Shown: positions 4,966 to 15,802 of the stretch, one piece after another
Position numbering within the stretch: position 1 is the first letter of the stretch
How the letters are laid out: every line of letters begins with the position of its first letter
Source of the DNA: Thiobacillus denitrificans ATCC 25259
GTDB taxonomy: Bacteria; Pseudomonadota; Gammaproteobacteria; Burkholderiales; Thiobacillaceae
Direction of reading: 5' to 3'
DNA length: 64,000 nt
NCBI RefSeq assembly: GCF_000012745.1
Contig: NC_007404.1
Location: 2,294,001-2,358,000, forward strand
Program-made: the position numbers and the translations under genes
The notes under the pieces: model-generated
Database searches by the model: none
Told to the model about the DNA's origin: nothing
Seen by the model: only the letters and a program-made list of their open reading frames with translations

Positions 4966-6279
4966 TCAGTGCAGCTTGATCCGCGCCCGTGTCGGCGTGC
5001 TGATGAAATGCGCGTAGGTCGTGAGCGAGGTCTTGAACCAGCCGTGCAATGCGACCTGGTGCATCTTGTGCAGCGACCAGTACACGAGTCGGGCCAGCGC
5101 GCCCTCGATCATGATGCTGCCGCCGGTGAGTCCACCCATCAGGTTGCCGACGGTGGAAAAACGTCCGAGCGCGACCAGTGAACCGTAGTCGCGATAGACG
5201 TATTCAGGCAGGGATTTGCCGCGGAAGCGCCGGCAGATCGACTTGACGAGCATCGATGCCTGCTGGTGCGCGGCCTGCGCCCGCGGTGGCACGAAGCCGC
5301 TGCCGTCGGGCAGTGGGCACGCGGCGCAATCGCCGAAGGCGAAGATGTTGTCGTCGCGCGTCGTCTGCAGCGTCGGTCGCACGACCAGCTGGTTGATGCG
5401 ATTGGTCTCGAGGCCGTCGATGTCCTTGAGGAAATCGGGCGCCTTGATGCCGGCCGACCACACCATCATGCTCGCCGGGATGAGCTTGCCGTCGGCAGTG
5501 ACCATGCCGTTCTCGCGCACCTCGACGATGCGCTCGCGGGTATGCATTTCGACGCCGAGCTCGGCGAGGCGCTCGGCGGCGGCCGCCGACAGGCGCGGCG
5601 GCAATCCGGGCAGGATGCGGTCCGACGCCTCCACGATCAGAAGCTTCAGGCTCTTGTCCGGCTCGATCTGATCCATGCCGTAGGACGAAAGCTCGCGCGT
5701 CGTGTCGTGCAGTTCGGCGGCGAGTTCGACACCGGTCGCGCCGGCACCGACGATGCCGACCGTGAGCTGTCCGGGCGCGACGGCCTCGGTCTGGGTGTTG
5801 GCGCGCAGGCAGGCGTTGATGTGGCGGCGATGGAATTCGCGCGCCTGTTCCGGCGTATCGAGCATGATGCAATGCTCCTTGACGCCCGGGACGCCGAAGT
5901 CGTTGCCGACCGAACCGACCGCGATGACCAGCGTGTCGTAGCGGAAGCTGCGGCGCGGGATGATCTCGCGACCCTCCTCGTCGAAAGTCGGTGCGACGCT
6001 GACCTCCTGGCGTGCGCGGTCGAGGCCGTCCATGCGCCCGAGGCGGAAGGTGAAGCCGTGCCAGTGGCCCTGCGCCAGATATTCGAGACGCTCGGCGTAG
6101 GAATCGAGGCTGCCTGCAGCGACTTCGTAAAGCAACGGCTTCCACAGATGCGAGGGTGAGGCGTCGATCAGCGTGATGTTCGCGCGCTTCTTGCCTCCGA
6201 GCTTGTCGCCGAGCCGCGTCGCGAGTTCCAGACCGCCCGCACCGCCGCCGACGATGACGATTTCGTGTTTCTCTGTCAC
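4966..6279 (-). CDS. ndh: Type II NADH:quinone oxidoreductase (NDH-2)
   Basis: 437 residues. The FAD-binding fold opens with IVIVGGGAGGLELATRLGDK (residues 7-26). The NAD-binding fold carries VGIVGAGATGVELAAELHD near residue 170. The region IFAFGDCAACP and the QAAHQQASMLVKS helix are characteristic of NDH-2. The enzyme is single-subunit and non-proton-pumping, passing electrons from NADH to quinone at the inner face of the cytoplasmic membrane. The C-terminal ~60 residues, with hydrophobic and basic patches, would anchor it peripherally. In a sulfur lithotroph it could also relate to flavoprotein quinone reductases, but no SQR-type cysteine pair is evident. Confidence 0.9.
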   Translation of the reverse strand: MTEKHEIVIVGGGAGGLELATRLGDKLGGKKRANITLIDASPSHLWKPLLYEVAAGSLDSYAERLEYLAQGHWHGFTFRLGRMDGLDRARQEVSVAPTFDEEGREIIPRRSFRYDTLVIAVGSVGNDFGVPGVKEHCIMLDTPEQAREFHRRHINACLRANTQTEAVAPGQLTVGIVGAGATGVELAAELHDTTRELSSYGMDQIEPDKSLKLLIVEASDRILPGLPPRLSAAAAERLAELGVEMHTRERIVEVRENGMVTADGKLIPASMMVWSAGIKAPDFLKDIDGLETNRINQLVVRPTLQTTRDDNIFAFGDCAACPLPDGSGFVPPRAQAAHQQASMLVKSICRRFRGKSLPEYVYRDYGSLVALGRFSTVGNLMGGLTGGSIMIEGALARLVYWSLHKMHQVALHGWFKTSLTTYAHFISTPTRARIKLH

Positions 6280-7965: not shown

Positions 7966-8754
7966 TCAGGCAAACAGCCTGGCAAGCTCGGCGCCCGGGT
8001 CGGCCGCACGCATGAAGGCCTCGCCGACCAGAAAGGTATTGACGCCGCGGCTGCGCATCGTATCCACGTCGGCCGGCGCGAGGATGCCGGACTCGGTGAC
8101 GACGATGCGCTCGGGGCCTATCTTCGGCAGCAGCGAAAGCGTGGTATCGAGGCTGACCTCGAAGGTGCGCAGGTTGCGGTTGTTGATGCCCTGCAGCGGC
8201 GTGCGCAGCGTCAGCGCGGCGTCGAGTTCGGCGGCGTCGTGCGACTCCACGAGAACCGCCATCCCCAATTCATTCGCCAGCGCTTCGAGCGCCTGCATCG
8301 CCGGCAACTCGAGCGCGGCGACGATCAGCAGGATGCAGTCGGCGCCCATCGCGCGCGCCTCGTAGACCTGGTAGGCGTCGATCATGAAATCCTTGCGCAG
8401 GACCGGAAGCGTACAGGCCGCGCGTGCGGCCTTGAGGTAGTCCGCGCTGCCCTGGAAATATTCCGCGTCGGTCAGTATGGACAGACATGCCGCGCCGCCC
8501 TTTTCATAACTGGCGGCGATTTCCGCGGGCCGGAAGTCGGCCCGGATCACGCCCTTGGACGGACTTGCCTTCTTGATCTCTGCGATCACGGCCGGCCGGC
8601 CGGCATCGCGCTTTGCCCGCAGCGCGCCGACGAAATCGCGTGCCGGCGCGGCCGCCTCGGCACGCGCGCGCATTTCGGCGAGCGGCACCCGGGCGAGGCC
8701 GGCCGCGACCTCGGCGCGTTTGGTCGCGAGGATTTTTTCGAGGATGTCCGACAT
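7966..8754 (-). CDS. trpC: Indole-3-glycerol-phosphate synthase
   Basis: 262 residues from the ATG at 8754. It closes the indole ring of carboxyphenylamino-deoxyribulose phosphate in tryptophan synthesis. A TIM barrel is indicated by [50 protein letters not shown] and VTESGI. A GTG at 8763 overlapping the trpD stop is also in frame. I prefer the ATG because family members begin MSDIL, but the two starts differ by only three codons. Last gene of trpG-trpD-trpC. Confidence 0.96.
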
Positions 8755-8759
8755 CGTGC

Positions 8760-9791
8760 TCACGCCTGCTTTGCCTGCGTCGAGTAGGCGACGAGTTGTT
8801 GCAACTTGTCGCGTGCAGCGCCGCTGCGGATCGCCTCGCGCGCCAGCTCGATGCCCTCGCCGAGCGTCGCCGCGCGGTCGGCGACGTAGATCGCCGCGCC
8901 GGCGTTGAACAGCACGATGTCGCGCGCCGGGCCCGGCAGGTCGTCAAGCACCGACAGCAACATGTCCTTGGCCTGCGTCGCATCCCACACCTTGAGCGCG
9001 TCGCTGCCGCAGGGCTGCAGCCCGAACTCGCGCGGGTTGATCGTGTATTCGCTGACCTCGCCGTCCTTCAGTTCGCCGATCAGGGTATCGCCGGCGAGCG
9101 TGATTTCGTCCATGCCGTCGCTACCGTGAACGACCATGACGTGGCTGCTGCCAAGGCGTTGCAGCACGCGCACGAGGATGCCGACGAGGTCGGCGTGGAA
9201 GACGCCGAGCAGTTGATGCGGCGCGTTCGCCGGATTGGTCAGCGGCCCGAGAATGTTGAAAAGCGTGCGCACGCCGAGTTCGCGGCGGACCGGCGCCGCG
9301 TGCCTCATCGCGCCGTGGAAGTTCGGCGCGAACATGAAGCCGATGCCGATCGCGTCGATGCTCGCGGCGACCTGCTCGGGCGTGAGCGCGAGGTTGACGC
9401 CAAGCGCCTCGAGCACGTCGGCGCTGCCGCTCGTCGATGAGACCGAGCGGCCGCCGTGCTTGGCGACCCGCGCGCCGGCAGCTGCGGCGACGAAGGCCGC
9501 GGTCGTCGAAATGTTGAAGGTGTGCGCGGCGTCGCCGCCGGTGCCGCAGGTGTCGACGAGATGCTCGCGCTGCTGCACCGGTACCTCGAGCGCGAACTCG
9601 CGCATGACCTCCGCCGCCGCCGCGATCTCGCCGACAGTCTCCTTCTTCACCCTGAGCCCGGTGATGACGCCGGCGATCTGCACGGGCGTGAGCTCGCCGC
9701 GCATGATCTGGCGCATCAGCGCGAGCATCTCGTCGTGAAAGATTTCGCGCTGTTCGACCAGGCGGGTCAGCGCCTGCTGCGGCGTGATCAT
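8760..9791 (-). CDS. trpD: Anthranilate phosphoribosyltransferase
   Basis: 343 residues, the usual family length. It transfers the phosphoribosyl group of PRPP to anthranilate. The PRPP-binding motif [17 protein letters not shown] lies around residue 80. [23 protein letters not shown] and [10 protein letters not shown] are both strongly conserved in TrpD. The ATG overlaps the trpG stop by four bases, so trpG and trpD are translationally coupled. Confidence 0.97.
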
Positions 9792-10357
9792 CGCGTTCCC
9801 TTCAGGAAGTTCTTCAACATCGCGTGGCCGTGCTCGGTCAGGATCGATTCGGGATGGAACTGCACGCCCTCGACCGCAAGCGTCTTGTGACGTACCCCCA
9901 TGATCTCGCCGTCGTCGCTCCAGGCCGTGATCTCCAGGCAGTCGGGCAGCGATTCGCGCTCGATCACGAGCGAGTGGTAGCGCGTGGCGCGGAAGGGATT
10001 GGGCAGGCCCTTGAAGACGCCCGCGTCCAGATGCTCGATCATCGAGGTCTTGCCGTGCATGAGTTCCTTCGCGCGCACGATCCTGCCGCCGAAGGCCTGA
10101 CCGATGCTCTGGTGCCCGAGGCAGACGCCGAGGATCGGAATCCGCCCCGAAAATTCCTTGATCAGCGGCACCGAGACGCCGGCTTCGTTGGGCGTGCAGG
10201 GGCCGGGCGAGACGACGATGTGGTCGGGCGCGAGTGTCGCGATTCCGGCGAGGTCGATTTCGTCGTTGCGCACGACCTTGACCGCTTCACCGAGCTCGCC
10301 GAAGTACTGCACAAGGTTGTAGGTGAAGCTGTCGTAGTTGTCGATCATCAAAAGCAT
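9788..10357 (-). CDS. trpG: Anthranilate synthase, glutamine amidotransferase subunit
   Basis: 189 residues starting at [20 protein letters not shown]. Class I glutamine amidotransferase: oxyanion motif [11 protein letters not shown], nucleophile cysteine in [15 protein letters not shown], and the His/Glu pair in VQFHPESI. It supplies ammonia to TrpE and may be shared with 4-amino-4-deoxychorismate synthase. Its partner trpE is not adjacent but lies 3 kb away across the sqr module. First gene of trpGDC; the upstream region also contains the terminator of sqr. Confidence 0.97.
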
Positions 10358-10454
10358 GGCTGTCCTTCGGCTCGCGGCACCCGCGCTCGCGCGCGCCGCC
10401 GGACCGGAAATTATAGCTGCGCGGCCCGCCGGCCATAAAAAAAGCGCGCCCCAT

Positions 10455-10477
10455 AAAAAAAGCGCCCGAAGGCGCTT
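10455..10477 (-). terminator. Rho-independent terminator of the sqr operon
   Basis: Read on the minus strand, the hairpin AAGCGCC-TTCG-GGCGCTT (7-bp stem, stable UUCG tetraloop) is followed directly by a run of seven T. It lies 24 bp after the sqr stop. Immediately beyond it the sequence CCATAAAAAAAGCGC occurs a second time (10433-10447 and 10451-10465), which looks like a partial tandem duplication of the terminator tail. Confidence 0.85.
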
Positions 10478-10500
10478 AGGGGGCAGGAGTCCGAAATTGT

Positions 10501-11769
10501 TTACTTGAGTTTCTTGATGCCCATGAGGCCGAGCACGTACTTCTCGTACAGCGGCTCGGTCGAGCCTTTTTTCATCTTGCGGATGAAGTACTTCTCGAAG
10601 GCGACCTTGGCCAGATGCACCCACTTGCCTTCCTTGAACCAGTTGACATTGCGCGGCGGAATCTGCGGCAGGGCCACGAAGGCGGCGCCGGTGTCGCCGA
10701 AGTCGGCGAGGCAGATCGCGTTCCAGGTCGCCTTCTCGGCAGGCTCGCGGCCGTCGAGCACGGCGCGGATGTTGTGCGCGGTCGCCGTCACCATCGATTC
10801 GATCATGTAGCCGGTCTTCGGCGTGCCGGTCGGCACGGGAGTGACCTCGACGGGTGGGATCGCGACGCACACGCCGACGGAGTAGACGTTCGGGTACTTC
10901 GCGTTGCGCTGGTAGGGGTCGATCGTGATGAAGCCGCGCGGATTGGTCAGCCCCTCGATGCCGAACACAGCATCGATGCCCTTGAACGCCGGCAGCATCA
11001 TCGAGTAGCCGAACGGCAGTTCGTGCTCCTTGATCACTTCGCCCTTGTCGTTGTGCTCGGCGACGAACATCTTGCCAGCCTCGACCTTGGTGACCTTGGC
11101 GTTGCAGATCCACTTGATGTGGCGCTCGCGGAGGACCGATTCGAGCATGCCCTTGGAATCGCCGACGCCGCCCAGTCCCAGATGGCCGATATACGGCTCG
11201 GCCGTGACGTAGGTCATCGGCACGCGGTCACGAATCTTGCGCTTGCGCAGGTCGGTGTCCATGATCATCGCGTACTCGTACGCCGGGCCGTAGCAGGAAG
11301 CCCCCTGCACCGCGCCGACCACGATCGGCCCCGGGTTCTTCACAAAATCGTCCCACGCGCGGCCCGCGGCCTGGGCATGGTCGACCGTGCATACCGACTG
11401 GGTGTAACCCTCGGGGCCGAGGCCCGGGACTTCGTCGAACGCGAGCTTGGGCCCCGTCGCGATGACGAGGAAGTCATAGTCGACGGTCCTGCCGTCGGTG
11501 AGGTCGATCTGGTTCCTGTCGGGATGCACGCGCGCGGCGCCGACCGGAATGAAGTCGATGTTTTTCTTGTTGAGGTAAGGCGCGGCCTCGAGCGTGACGT
11601 CGTCACGCTTGCGCCAGTTCACCCCCACCCAGGGGTTGGACGGCGTGAACTGGAAGTACGAATTGTTGGAAATGACGGTGACCTTGTCCTCGGCCCGTGC
11701 CGACTCGCGCATTTCATACGCCATGGTCATGCCGCCGACGCCGGCGCCGAGTATTACGATGTGTGCCAT
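10501..11769 (-). CDS. sqr: Sulfide:quinone oxidoreductase-type flavoprotein
   Basis: 422 residues. The FAD motif [16 protein letters not shown] is at residues 4-19. The conserved cysteines expected for SQR are present: C127 (SVCTVD), C159 (GASCYGP) and C301 (VGVCVAIPP). [13 protein letters not shown] matches the quinone/FAD end of the family. The protein oxidises sulfide to polysulfide or S0 and reduces quinone at the periplasmic membrane face. There is no signal peptide, which is normal for SQRs. The subtype is not certain; the sequence resembles types III-VI more than type I. It follows a 67-residue gene after a short gap, behind a sigma-54 promoter. Confidence 0.87.
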
Positions 11770-11809
11770 GTGTTGTTCTCCTGGGGTGCTGTGTGGTTGG
11801 GTAGGCGAC

Positions 11810-12013
11810 TCACCACTCGAAGACGCGCACCATGGCGTCGAGGCCGTCCTGAACGATCTTCTGCAAGTCCTCGGGGCAGTCCTCGCGCTCGAGCGCGAGG
11901 GTCGTGTAGGCGGACAGGCTCTTCAGCGCACAGGCGATCCTGGCCACATCGTCGACCAGTTCCGGGGGGATGTTCACGCCCGGCTTCAGCTTCCAGTTCG
12001 TGTTTTCAGACAT
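11810..12013 (-). CDS. Small conserved protein paired with SQR
   Basis: 67 residues, acidic, no membrane segment, ending FEW. The sequence (KPGVNIPPELVDDVARIACALKS and CPEDLQKIVQDGL) predicts two or three helices and has two cysteines. A GGAG Shine-Dalgarno precedes the ATG. It is the first gene after the sigma-54 promoter and is followed 40 bp later by sqr, so the two are co-transcribed. I do not recognise a named family. A role in sulfide sensing or SQR function is inference from position only. Confidence 0.75.
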   Translation of the reverse strand: MSENTNWKLKPGVNIPPELVDDVARIACALKSLSAYTTLALEREDCPEDLQKIVQDGLDAMVRVFEW

Positions 12014-12052
12014 GTTCGCTCCGTCCTATCGAGGGTTGTGTCTCCCTGTTAT

Positions 12053-12068
12053 AGCAACCGGCATGCCA
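12053..12068 (-). promoter_or_regulatory. Sigma-54 (-24/-12) promoter for the sqr operon
   Basis: On the minus strand the sequence TGGCATGCCGGTTGCT fits the consensus TGGCAYRNNNNTTGCW at every defined position. It would start transcription about 30 bp before the 67-residue gene. The divergent neighbour encodes a sigma-54 activator, which makes the match far more convincing than the sequence alone. Confidence 0.82.
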
Positions 12069-12114
12069 ACCGCGAGGGGCCGTAATTACGCGGGGCGCGG
12101 CGGTGGTCCAACGC

Positions 12115-12154
12115 TGACATGGCTTTGATGTCATGGCACTGTTAGCATGTGTCA
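12115..12154. promoter_or_regulatory. Candidate upstream activator sites (two dyads)
   Basis: Two inverted repeats sit back to back. TGACAT-N7-ATGTCA (12115-12133) is perfect. TGGCAC-N9-GTGTCA (12134-12154) has one mismatch. Relative to the sqr sigma-54 promoter they lie roughly 70-110 bp upstream, the usual place for enhancer binding. They also fall just before the activator's own start, which would allow autoregulation. The binding protein is inferred to be the adjacent activator. Confidence 0.6.
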
Positions 12155-12177
12155 TGACGATCAGCGGGGACCACGCC

Positions 12178-13470
12178 ATGCCATCCATCGAACTGCAGGA
12201 CATCATCGACGCGAACGACCAGCCTTTCGTCGTGATCGACAGCGCATACCGCATCGTCGCGGCCAACCGGCGCTACGCGGAAACCTATGGCGCGACGCCC
12301 GAGGCGATCGTCGGCGAGCACTGCTACGCCGTGTCTCACCACTCGCCGCGGCCCTGCCACGAAAACGGCGAGCAATGCCCGCACCGCGCCCTGTTCGAGA
12401 ACGGCGAGGCGGTCGAGGTCGTGCACACGCACTTTCATGCCAACGATCAGCCCGAGCGCACTCGCATCCGCGGCCACGCGCTGCGCGGCCCGGACGGCGA
12501 GCGCTACCTGGGCGAGCAGCTCTACCCGCTCGAAGCCGACATCGGCCTGGATTGCGACGCCATGCAGATGGTCGGGCAGTCCCCGGCGTTTCTCGCGTGC
12601 GTCGACAATCTCGCGCGCGTCGCCGAAAGCGAAGCGTCGATCCTGCTGTATGGCGAAAGCGGCGTCGGCAAGGAACTCGCCGCGCGCTTCATCCATGCTC
12701 GCTCGCAGCGCAGGGGCGGCGCCTTCATCGTGATCAACTGCGCCGCGGTGCCCGAAACCCTGTTCGAAAGCGAGCTGTTCGGCCACGAACGCGGCGCGTT
12801 CTCGGGCAGCAGCGGCCTCAAGAAAGGCCTGTTCGAACTCGCCGACGGTGGCACGCTATTCCTCGACGAGGTCGCGGAGATCCCGCTGGCGCTGCAGGCC
12901 AAGCTGCTGCGCGTACTGGAGACCGGGGAATTCCGCCGTGTCGGCGGCACCCACACGCTGACCGCGGACGTGCGGCTGGTGTCGGCGACCAACCGCCGCC
13001 TGCTGGACGAAGTCGACGAAAAGCGCTTCCGGCTCGACCTCTACTACCGGCTGGCCGGCATCGACGTCGTGCTGCCGCCGCTGCGCGAGCGCCGCGCCGA
13101 CCTGCCCGCGCTGGCCGCCTTCCTGCTCAAGCGACTGGCCGGCGGCCGCCGAGCCTGCCGGCTCGACGCGAGCGGACTGGCGGCGCTGCAGGCCTACGAT
13201 TTTCCGGGGAACGTGCGCGAACTGCGCAACCTGCTGCAGCGCGCGGTGCTGACCTGCCGCGACGGCGTGATCGGCGCCGCCGATCTGAACCTGCCCGTCG
13301 CCGCCGTGACGCCGGTCCAGCCGGCGACGCAGGGGCTCGCCGACATCGAGCGCGCGCACATTCGCGCGCTGCTCGCCAGCCGCGGCGGCCACCGCGGACG
13401 GGTCGCCCAGGCACTCGGCGTCACCGAGCGCACGCTGTACCGCAAGCTCAAACGCTACGGCCTGAGTTAG
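12178..13470 (+). CDS. PAS-sensor sigma-54 activator, probable regulator of sqr
   Basis: 430 residues. An N-terminal PAS domain (about 1-115) carries a cysteine/histidine cluster (H48, C49, C60, C67, H69). The AAA+ domain has Walker A GESGVGKE at 159-166 and Walker B GGTLFLDE at 224-231. A Fis-type helix-turn-helix ends the protein ([20 protein letters not shown]). The sigma-54-contacting loop reads GAFSGS rather than GAFTGA. I start at MPSIELQD, behind GGGGA, because earlier in-frame ATGs (12133, 12154) would run through the candidate operator dyads. Divergent from the sqr operon. Signal identity (redox, sulfide) is inference. Confidence 0.9.
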
Positions 13471-13503
13471 CGCCCGCGCGTTTCGGCGGGCCGGGCAAAC
13501 GCC

Positions 13504-14997
13504 TTATTCGACGACGTCGCCGAAGCGCGCGTAGGCGAGCTCGGCCGCACGCACGACCGCCCGCGCCTTGTTGAGCGTCTCGGTCCACTCGTTGTCGGGG
13601 ACCGAGTCGGCGACGATGCCGGCGCCGGCCTGGGCGTAGAGCATTCCATCCTTGACGACGGCCGTGCGGATCGCGATCGCGAGATCCATGTCGCCGCTGA
13701 AGCCGAGGTAGCCGACGGCGCCGGCGTAGACCCCGCGCTTGCTCGGTTCGAGCTCGTCGATGATCTCCATCGCCCGCACCTTGGGCGCCCCCGAGACCGT
13801 ACCTGCCGGAAAGCTCGCGCGCAGGACGTCGAGCGCGGAGAGTCCGGGCTTGAGCTTGCCTTCGACGTTCGAGACGATGTGCATGACGTGCGAATAGCGC
13901 TCGATCTGCATGTGTTCCGTGACCTTGACGCTGCCGGTCACGGCGACCCGCCCCGTGTCGTTGCGCCCGAGGTCGAGGAGCTGCAGATGTTCGGCGCATT
14001 CCTTCGGGTCGGCCATCAATTCGGCCGCGAGGCGCTGATCGTCCTCGCGCGTGAGCCCGCGCGGCCGCGTGCCGGCGATCGGCCGCAGCGTGACCGTGTC
14101 GCCCTCGAGCCGGACCAGGATCTCGGGCGACGAGCCGACGATGTGGAAGCCGCCAAGGTCGTAGAAATACATGTAGGGCGACGGGTTGAGGCTGCGCAGC
14201 GCACGGTAGAGCGACAGCGGCGAGGCCTCGAACGGCCGCGCCATCCGCTGCGACAGCACGACCTGCATGACGTCGCCGGCCGCGATGTACTCCTTGGCCT
14301 TGGCAACCGCGGCCTTGAACTCGGCTTCGCCGAATTCGGAGCTCGCTTCGGCGACGACCGGGCGCGGCTCGCTCGGCAGCGTGACCGGCGCGTGCAGCTT
14401 CTCGGCAAGCTCCGCGAGCCGCAAGTGCCCCTGCGCATAGGCGTCCGCCTGCATCGGGTCGGCGTGGGTGACGAGATAGAGCTTGCCGGCGAGGTTGTCG
14501 AAGACGGCGAGTTCCTCGGTCAGCATCAGCAGGATGTCGGGCGTGTGCAGGACGTCGTCCTTGCGCACGAGGTTCTTGTTGAATTCCGGCGTCAGTCGCT
14601 TCTCGATGTAACGGATCGTGTCGTAGCCGAAGTAGCCGGCCAGGCCGCCGGTGAAGCGCGGCAAGCCCAGGACCGGCGCGGCCTTGAAGCGGGTCTGATA
14701 CTCGGCGATGAAAGCGAGCGGATCGGGCGTGCTGCATTCCTCGACGACCTGGCCGTCGGTTTCGACCGTCAGGAGGTGGGCGCGCACCCTGAGCACGGTG
14801 CGCGCCGGCAGGCCGATGAAGGAATAGCGTCCGAAGCGTTCGCCGCCGACGACCGATTCGAGGAGATAGGTATAGGGCGCGTTGGCGAGCTTGAGATAGA
14901 CCGACAGCGGCGTCTCGAGGTCGCCGGGCAGTTCGCGCACCAGCGGGATACGGTTGAAGCCCTGGCGGGCAAGGTCGAAGAATTCTTGTTCGGTCAT
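13504..14997 (-). CDS. trpE: Anthranilate synthase component I
   Basis: 497 residues from [20 protein letters not shown]. Chorismate-binding enzyme: the feedback-inhibition element [18 protein letters not shown] is near residue 40-57. The catalytic core has [25 protein letters not shown] and [18 protein letters not shown]. It converts chorismate plus ammonia from TrpG to anthranilate. An upstream in-frame ATG at 15078 is rejected because the extra residues are encoded by a repeat element. It would normally be next to trpG, but here the sqr module intervenes. Confidence 0.97.
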
Positions 14998-15000
14998 GGC

Positions 15001-15112
15001 AGGGGTCGGGATCCGGGATTCAGGGGTCAGGGAATGTGCTGCGCGTCTTGTCAGGACGAGCGCCGCCATCGGCGGCACGGCCCCTGAATCCTGATCCCCG
15101 AATCCCGCCCCC
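15001..15112. repeat. 112-bp inverted-repeat element, copy A
   Basis: Fills the trpE-gph gap. The left arm is built of GGGGTC/GGATTCAGG units (GGATTCAGGGGTCAGGG). The right arm is their complement (CCCCTGAATCCTGATCCCC). The central part differs from copies B and C. It can form a long imperfect hairpin in DNA or RNA. See copies at 15810 and 51491. Confidence 0.75.
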
Positions 15113-15118
15113 TTGCCA

Positions 15119-15802
15119 TCACGCCTTCGTCACCATCAGCGCCGCCTCGGCGAGACTCGGCACGACTGCGTCGAGATCGAGTTCGGTGACCGGGCGCCCG
15201 CGGTTGTAGCCGTAGGGCACGCAGAATACCGGGCAGCCTGCGGCGCGCGCGGCCTGCGTGTCGTTGAGCGAATCGCCGATCAGCAACAGCTCGGCTGGGG
15301 CTACGCCGAACACCTCGCACGCATGCAACAGCGGCAGTGGGTCGGGCTTGCGCTTGGGCAGCGTATCGCCGGAGAGGATCAGCTCGAAGTAGTCGTACAG
15401 CCCCGTGCCCTTGAGGAGCGGGACGGTGAACTGCTCGGCCTTGTTGGTGATGCACGCCATGTGCAACCCCATCGCCTTGAAGGCCTGTAGGCCCTCGACC
15501 ACGCCGTCGAAGGGGCGCGAGTGCAGCGACACGTGCTCGCCGTAATGCTTCTGGTAGGACGCGATCGCCTGCGCGAACAACGCCGGATCCGGCTCGGCGT
15601 CCATCTCGCCGGTGAGCACCCGCTTGACCAGACGCGAGACGCCGTTGCCGATATAGGTCGAAATGGTCTCGAGCGACGGGCAGGGCCGCCCGAGCTCTGC
15701 CATCATGAGTTCGGCGGCATGCGCGAGATCGGGCGCCGTATTGAGCAGGGTGCCGTCGAGGTCGATGACGACGGCCTTGATGGGAAGGGGGAAGCTTTTC
15801 AT
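15119..15802 (-). CDS. gph: Phosphoglycolate phosphatase (HAD family)
   Basis: 227 residues. HAD motif [13 protein letters not shown] has the nucleophile pair D14/D16. Motif II is ACITNK and motif [19 protein letters not shown]. It removes the phosphate of 2-phosphoglycolate, a by-product of Rubisco oxygenation or DNA repair, which makes sense in an autotroph. The rpe-gph-trpE order is common in Betaproteobacteria. Repeat elements flank it on both sides. Confidence 0.93.

Follow-up and report, generated by a model that had tools for sequence, protein, structure and literature searches.

A FisR-family activator and sigma-54 probably drive sqr from three conserved boxes in Thiobacillus denitrificans, with a rhodanese operon as putative second target

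FisR of Cupriavidus pinatubonensis JMP134 was reportedly described by Li et al. in 2017, and its cysteines are presumably those numbered C53/C64/C71. According to a review, FisR of Cupriavidus senses reactive sulfur through disulfide and tetrasulfide links formed among three conserved cysteines (PMC9774590). In Acinetobacter baumannii, the induction by sulfide of the sqr operon is lost upon deletion of a divergent fisR; this FisR reportedly responds to sulfide while being devoid of the regulatory cysteines (PMC7315123), which makes the cysteine triad dispensable in some FisR. An initial annotation of the locus presented below had regarded a PAS/sigma-54 switch of sqr as little described, wrongly so, for such an activator has been published as FisR in both genera (PMC7315123, PMC9774590).

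Here, I compare with FisR a stretch of 64,000 nucleotides of Thiobacillus denitrificans ATCC 25259, hereafter the window (G000:C1:2294001-2358000), the genome searched being a single contig of 2,909,809 bases. The window encodes a sulfide:quinone oxidoreductase (SQR) of 422 aa on the - strand (sqr, 10501..11769). Its best match is 3sz0, 'Sulfide-quinone reductase' (569.5 bits, residues 2-422), which I take to originate from A. ferrooxidans; 'type I' is presumably the label for SQR of the A. ferrooxidans kind, and is applied here to the window sqr. Membership in that kind is indicated by full-length homology and by three active-site cysteines, namely Cys127, Cys159 and Cys353, which are kept in 25/25, 25/25 and 24/25 relatives (the sole miss, L036, ends before the residue) and align with Cys128/160/356 of the A. 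ferrooxidans enzyme, as these are named in PMC6335251. On the same strand, sqr is preceded by a conserved leader ORF of 67 aa (11810..12013), which matches nothing in Pfam or NCBIfam at E values up to 0.1 and is present in 4 of the 25 loci with the sqr-activator pair in a first set and in 10/80 loci of a wider set of relatives (see below). The - strand unit consists of these two genes only, the genes that follow looking, by eye, like trp genes. No pdo is seen at 8500-15500 of the window, that is, the pdo-sqr operon of the Cupriavidus/Acinetobacter type, with its persulfide dioxygenase gene, is absent there.

The leader ORF stands for a small conserved family preceding sqr; it also occurs in L165, with no activator in the stretch, and in L162 it is duplicated in tandem together with sqr. 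Another pyridine-nucleotide-disulfide oxidoreductase-like gene lies some 4 kb away from sqr (window 4966-6279, - strand) and probably encodes an NADH dehydrogenase-like protein.

Divergent from sqr is the gene of a FisR-family sigma-54 activator of 430 aa (12178..13470, + strand), whose start was set at 12178 and not at 12133 because many orthologs begin there. The protein has the FisR architecture, i.e. an N-terminal regulatory domain, a sigma-54 AAA+ domain and a Fis-type HTH, in the form of PAS_4 (residues 14-108), Sigma54_activat (131-296) and HTH_8 (387-427), all above Pfam cut-offs; among the best 25 of the 37 NCBIfam models listed, none reaches its cut-off. A caution in reading it as an activator of sigma-54 comes from the loop that is normally GAFTGA and contacts sigma-54: it is GAFSGS in the window protein, and GAFTGC or GAFTGS in many members of its clade.

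The PAS domain contains the cysteine triad Cys49, Cys60 and Cys67 (C-x10-C-x6-C), which an alignment of relatives places in a 19-residue stretch (12322..12378, + strand) and which is complete in 30/30 of them. Three sensor cysteines are also found in Cupriavidus FisR, and the spacing equals that of the relative from C. metallidurans (L188), whose cysteines are residues 53, 64 and 71 when counted from an ATG lying three codons ahead of the stretch translated. Next to the invariant cysteines stand invariant histidines at 54, 55 (12 aligned rows), 61 and 69, a possibly metal-binding composition, and triad-bearing relatives adjoin other genes as well, e.g. cydAB; both facts would suit a domain which, within the same sigma-54 circuit, holds a metal or iron-sulfur centre or senses redox, oxygen or NO, not sulfane sulfur. 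This is unlikely given the spacing shared with the Cupriavidus relative, the reactive-sulfur sensing reported for FisR in Cupriavidus (PMC9774590) and the fact that sulfur genes are the majority of the activator's neighbours. By analogy with FisR, the window activator would instead be switched on by sulfide or sulfane sulfur.

Common descent with FisR is also apparent outside the sensor domain. The window and C. metallidurans activators share 41% identity over 432 columns, along their full length. In a tree of the AAA+ and HTH domains, from which PAS was left out, 25 window-type and 6 Cupriavidus-type rows are sister groups, and these 31 FisR-type rows are set apart from 6 other activators of the genome (100/99), an outgroup so small that other families could still fall between. 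The L188 activator has, in divergent orientation next to it, genes for a metallo-beta-lactamase-fold protein and a flavoprotein, here read as persulfide dioxygenase and SQR.

Cupriavidus-type activators with the cysteine triad were also seen divergent from cytochrome bd oxidase genes (cydAB) in L040 and L041, which are genomes of the genus Thiobacillus with -24/-12 matches at 1 and 0 mismatches, and in L189, a Pseudoalteromonas plasmid whose best -24/-12 match has 2 mismatches. This arrangement is possibly a reactive-sulfur switch for the terminal oxidase. A plasmid collection holds five records related to the window activator, all below 60% identity.

Divergence from sulfide-oxidation genes with a sigma-54 promoter, another trait of FisR, is likewise found in the window. 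The -24/-12 promoter TTGGCATGCCGGTTGCT (12053..12069, - strand) faces the leader ORF and sqr, is conserved, and is the single zero-mismatch match to TTGGCAYGN4TTGCW within the window; at up to 2 mismatches, the window has 10 matches vs 3.53 (sd 1.81) in shuffles. It had been annotated as fully matching, and the motif at 12053-12069 is indeed exact, provided that TGGCAT is counted beside the classic TGGCAC. From its position, the sqr transcript would be expected to start near 12042. Two sigma-54 genes are present in the genome, the sigma-54 DNA-binding domain being encoded at G000:C1:557864-558331 and 774830-775288.

Upstream of the promoter, the alignment of 24 genus loci discloses three palindromic TGTCATGACA-like boxes: box C, TGACATGGCT (12115..12124, centre about -77); box B, TGTCATGGCA (12129..12138, about -91); and box A, TGTCATGACG (12150..12159, about -112), which coincides with one of the 13 genomic occurrences of TGTCATGAC. 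The centres are 21 and 14 bases apart and, with a start at about 12042, would lie at usual enhancer distances. The gap consensus, in sqr orientation, reads GTCATGAC-N15-tGnCATGAC-N6-GnCATGTCA, then TGGCAnG-N4-TTGCt. Columns at least 95% identical number 35 among the 146 filled ones (24 rows), and 33 of these 35 are inside the boxes and the promoter. I infer that the boxes are the putative operator to which the activator binds.

Two adjacent dyads had originally been proposed in this gap. Their letters are exact, TGACAT-N7-ATGTCA at 12115-12133 and TGGCAC-N9-GTGTCA at 12134-12154; what is kept in the 24 aligned gaps are the three boxes and the promoter. Since conservation resides in the boxes, the dyads reduce to parts of three TGTCATGACA-like sites, the first joining halves of neighbouring boxes and the second joining halves of the middle and far boxes across an unconserved spacer; both were dropped as sites. 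At up to 2 mismatches, the first dyad has 2 window matches vs 0.68 expected (13/100 shuffles reach as many) and the second has 3 vs 4.50 expected (78/100 shuffles), so that neither is exceptional when considered by itself.

That SQR is needed for lithotroph energy makes steady expression plausible, and sqr might be transcribed mainly from another, constitutive promoter, the sigma-54 switch providing a modest boost. I consider this quite improbable: a simple scan of 11500-12700 finds no sigma-70 sites, and boxes and promoter are kept while the spacer separating them is unconserved. Control of sqr through the conserved sigma-54 promoter is the reading retained.

The survey of the genus covered 60 genomes, 36 of them in the genus (the window's own included). 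The activator's sensor domain is at least 65% identical in 24/36 genus genomes, and 50% identical in one genome of another family. The divergent gene pair that the initial annotation proposed to look for in relatives is there: sqr adjoins the activator, with the gap kept, in 25/30 fetched loci, and 24 genus gaps could be aligned. A wider scan of genome contigs, several of the genomes being shared with the first survey, returned 89 relatives, of which 80 were kept; they belong to Thiobacillus, Sulfuriferula, Sulfuricella, Sideroxydans, Gallionellales, Thiohalobacter, Acidithiobacillus and MAGs. An sqr at least 69% identical (best piece) lies near the activator in 68/80 loci. The remaining 12 comprise two contig ends (L107, L134), four loci with a more distant flavoprotein (see below) and six without such an sqr beside the activator (L106, L125, L126, L128, L135, L137).

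Boxes and promoters were counted in 78 regions of 200 bases (48 close and 30 distant loci) at up to 1 mismatch. At least two boxes are found in 43/48 close loci vs 0.16 expected and in 16/30 distant loci vs 0.06 expected; a promoter is found in 47/48 close loci vs 0.4 expected and in 15/30 distant loci vs 0.14 expected. Most loci come from related genomes, so these counts are not independent. Two boxes 41-44 bases apart take the place of the triad in 12 of the 33 loci listed, and L125, L126, L135 and L137 have no box. Where the fetched stretch lacks an activator, as is the case for five sqr homologues (L010, L163-L166), no box is present at up to 1 mismatch, and promoter matches have at least 3 mismatches.

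In the four loci with the more distant flavoprotein (L113, L117, L120 and L129; 21-23% identical to the window SQR), the activator is divergent from this protein and a small ORF, DsrE-like by eye, and these loci again show an exact sigma-54 promoter along with a TGTCATGACA box. In L160 (G018), sqr has mere fragments of a FisR-like frame upstream, no boxes, and a best promoter match with 2 mismatches; joint decay of activator and operator is possible, as is an assembly fault.

Is the switch dedicated to sqr, as first proposed? Probably not, since the site and a sigma-54-like promoter are met again in front of a rhodanese operon. The box A-B pair is exact in the genome at sqr only, and the next best place, with 1 mismatch, is at G000:C1:1733874; the box B-C pair is also exact at sqr only, and has five other places with 3 mismatches. 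Among the 13 places of TGTCATGAC, a promoter match (up to 1 mismatch) occurs within 260 bases only at sqr and at 1733873. Downstream of the latter site come a small ORF and a rhodanese; the rhodanese has a signal-like N terminus and is taken as periplasmic. With this single recurrence of a TGTCATGACA-like site and sigma-54-like promoter, exclusivity was dropped.

The rhodanese is found in 16/60 genomes, all within the genus. Fifteen primary orthologs (L168-L182) have a box at up to 1 mismatch in 14 cases, an exact TGTCATGACA in 11 and a promoter at up to 2 mismatches in 12; the promoter of L181 has three mismatches, no promoter lies near the box of L173, and the L182 rhodanese has neither box nor promoter. 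The distant L183 and the second tandem copies (L184-L186) have no box. In L106, a distant genome, the activator itself lies next to a small ORF and a rhodanese, in divergent orientation; this rhodanese shares 76% identity with its counterpart in the window genome, and the locus has an exact promoter and one box only at up to 1 mismatch. Within the genus, the activator is present in 15/16 genomes with the rhodanese vs 9/20 others (Fisher p = 0.0035, relatedness uncontrolled); the exception, G022, keeps rhodanese and box, and its genome, 81% complete, yielded no activator. These patterns point to the rhodanese operon as a second, unlinked target, whose regulation by the activator would go through the same kind of site.

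They also bear on a further alternative, namely that the boxes serve mainly the autoregulation of the activator, sqr being controlled otherwise. Box A does lie 19 bases from the activator gene start; the promoter, however, faces sqr, and its distance to the boxes varies fairly little, and the unlinked rhodanese of the genome has box and promoter with no activator gene adjoining it, which leaves autoregulation as very improbable.

To sum up, the comparison indicates a real, conserved and probably functional switch: a FisR-family one-component sensor and sigma-54 activator probably drives sqr from three boxes, with the rhodanese operon as second target. The product of sulfide oxidation by SQR would be sulfane sulfur (polysulfide or persulfide), and its reaction with the PAS cysteine triad would free the AAA+ domain; activator dimers on the three boxes, some 77 to 112 bases upstream, would assemble and remodel the sigma-54 polymerase at 12053-12069, resulting in more transcription of sqr and its leader ORF, and the unlinked rhodanese-containing operon would respond likewise. 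The proposal of the initial annotation, that sqr is run by sigma-54 and a divergent PAS activator, is well supported on sequence grounds by the kept pair, boxes and promoter; its two dyads, exclusivity and novelty did not stand. A bolder idea, put forward tentatively, is that FisR has an undescribed branch in lithotrophs and that this branch forms a feed-forward loop with product sensing, in which polysulfide made by SQR acts via the triad and TGTCATGACA-type boxes on sqr and the rhodanese operon; if so, and since sister triad activators are wired to cydAB and other genes, PAS activators with the triad might be a modular family coupling reactive sulfur to respiration. For Thiobacillus and its sulfur- and iron-oxidising relatives, the switch provides a testable operator, promoter and regulon of two operons for the oxidation of sulfide; a new sulfide-responsive gene is predicted (the rhodanese with the signal-like N terminus), and FisR, which serves sulfide detoxification in heterotrophs, would gain a role in the energy metabolism of lithotrophs.

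As to known systems, NorR, likewise a one-component protein, activates a divergent operon through sigma-54 and has three enhancer sites; it is an NO sensor, with a sensor domain unlike that of the window activator, and the latter scores 295.3 against the NorR NCBIfam model vs a cut-off of 476. No description of the window clade, its operator or the rhodanese target was found in the open literature searched; the operator would count as new only if no FisR binding site had been defined by Li et al. 2017. The SqrR/BigR proteins share thiol-based control of sulfide oxidation, but they are ArsR-type repressors and not sigma-54 activators (PMC12170894). A. baumannii FisR, a sigma-54 activator encoded divergently from an sqr operon that sulfide induces, parallels the window protein, but is reported without the regulatory cysteines, and its operon adds pdo1 and tauE (PMC7315123). 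Turning to the closest case, no TGTCATGACA-like box at up to 1 mismatch occurs in L188, where the best -24/-12 match has 2 mismatches. Cupriavidus FisR (JMP134, L188) and the window activator have in common the PAS-AAA+-HTH order, the cysteine spacing and the divergence from sulfide-oxidation genes; they differ in clade, in motif (PCHxNGExC in the window protein, PCDxxGExC in Cupriavidus) and in target, which in the window is a type I sqr with no dioxygenase gene. The window activator appears to be of the FisR kind but to form, with its relatives, a clade apart, whose members mostly adjoin type I sqr and have a conserved operator of their own.
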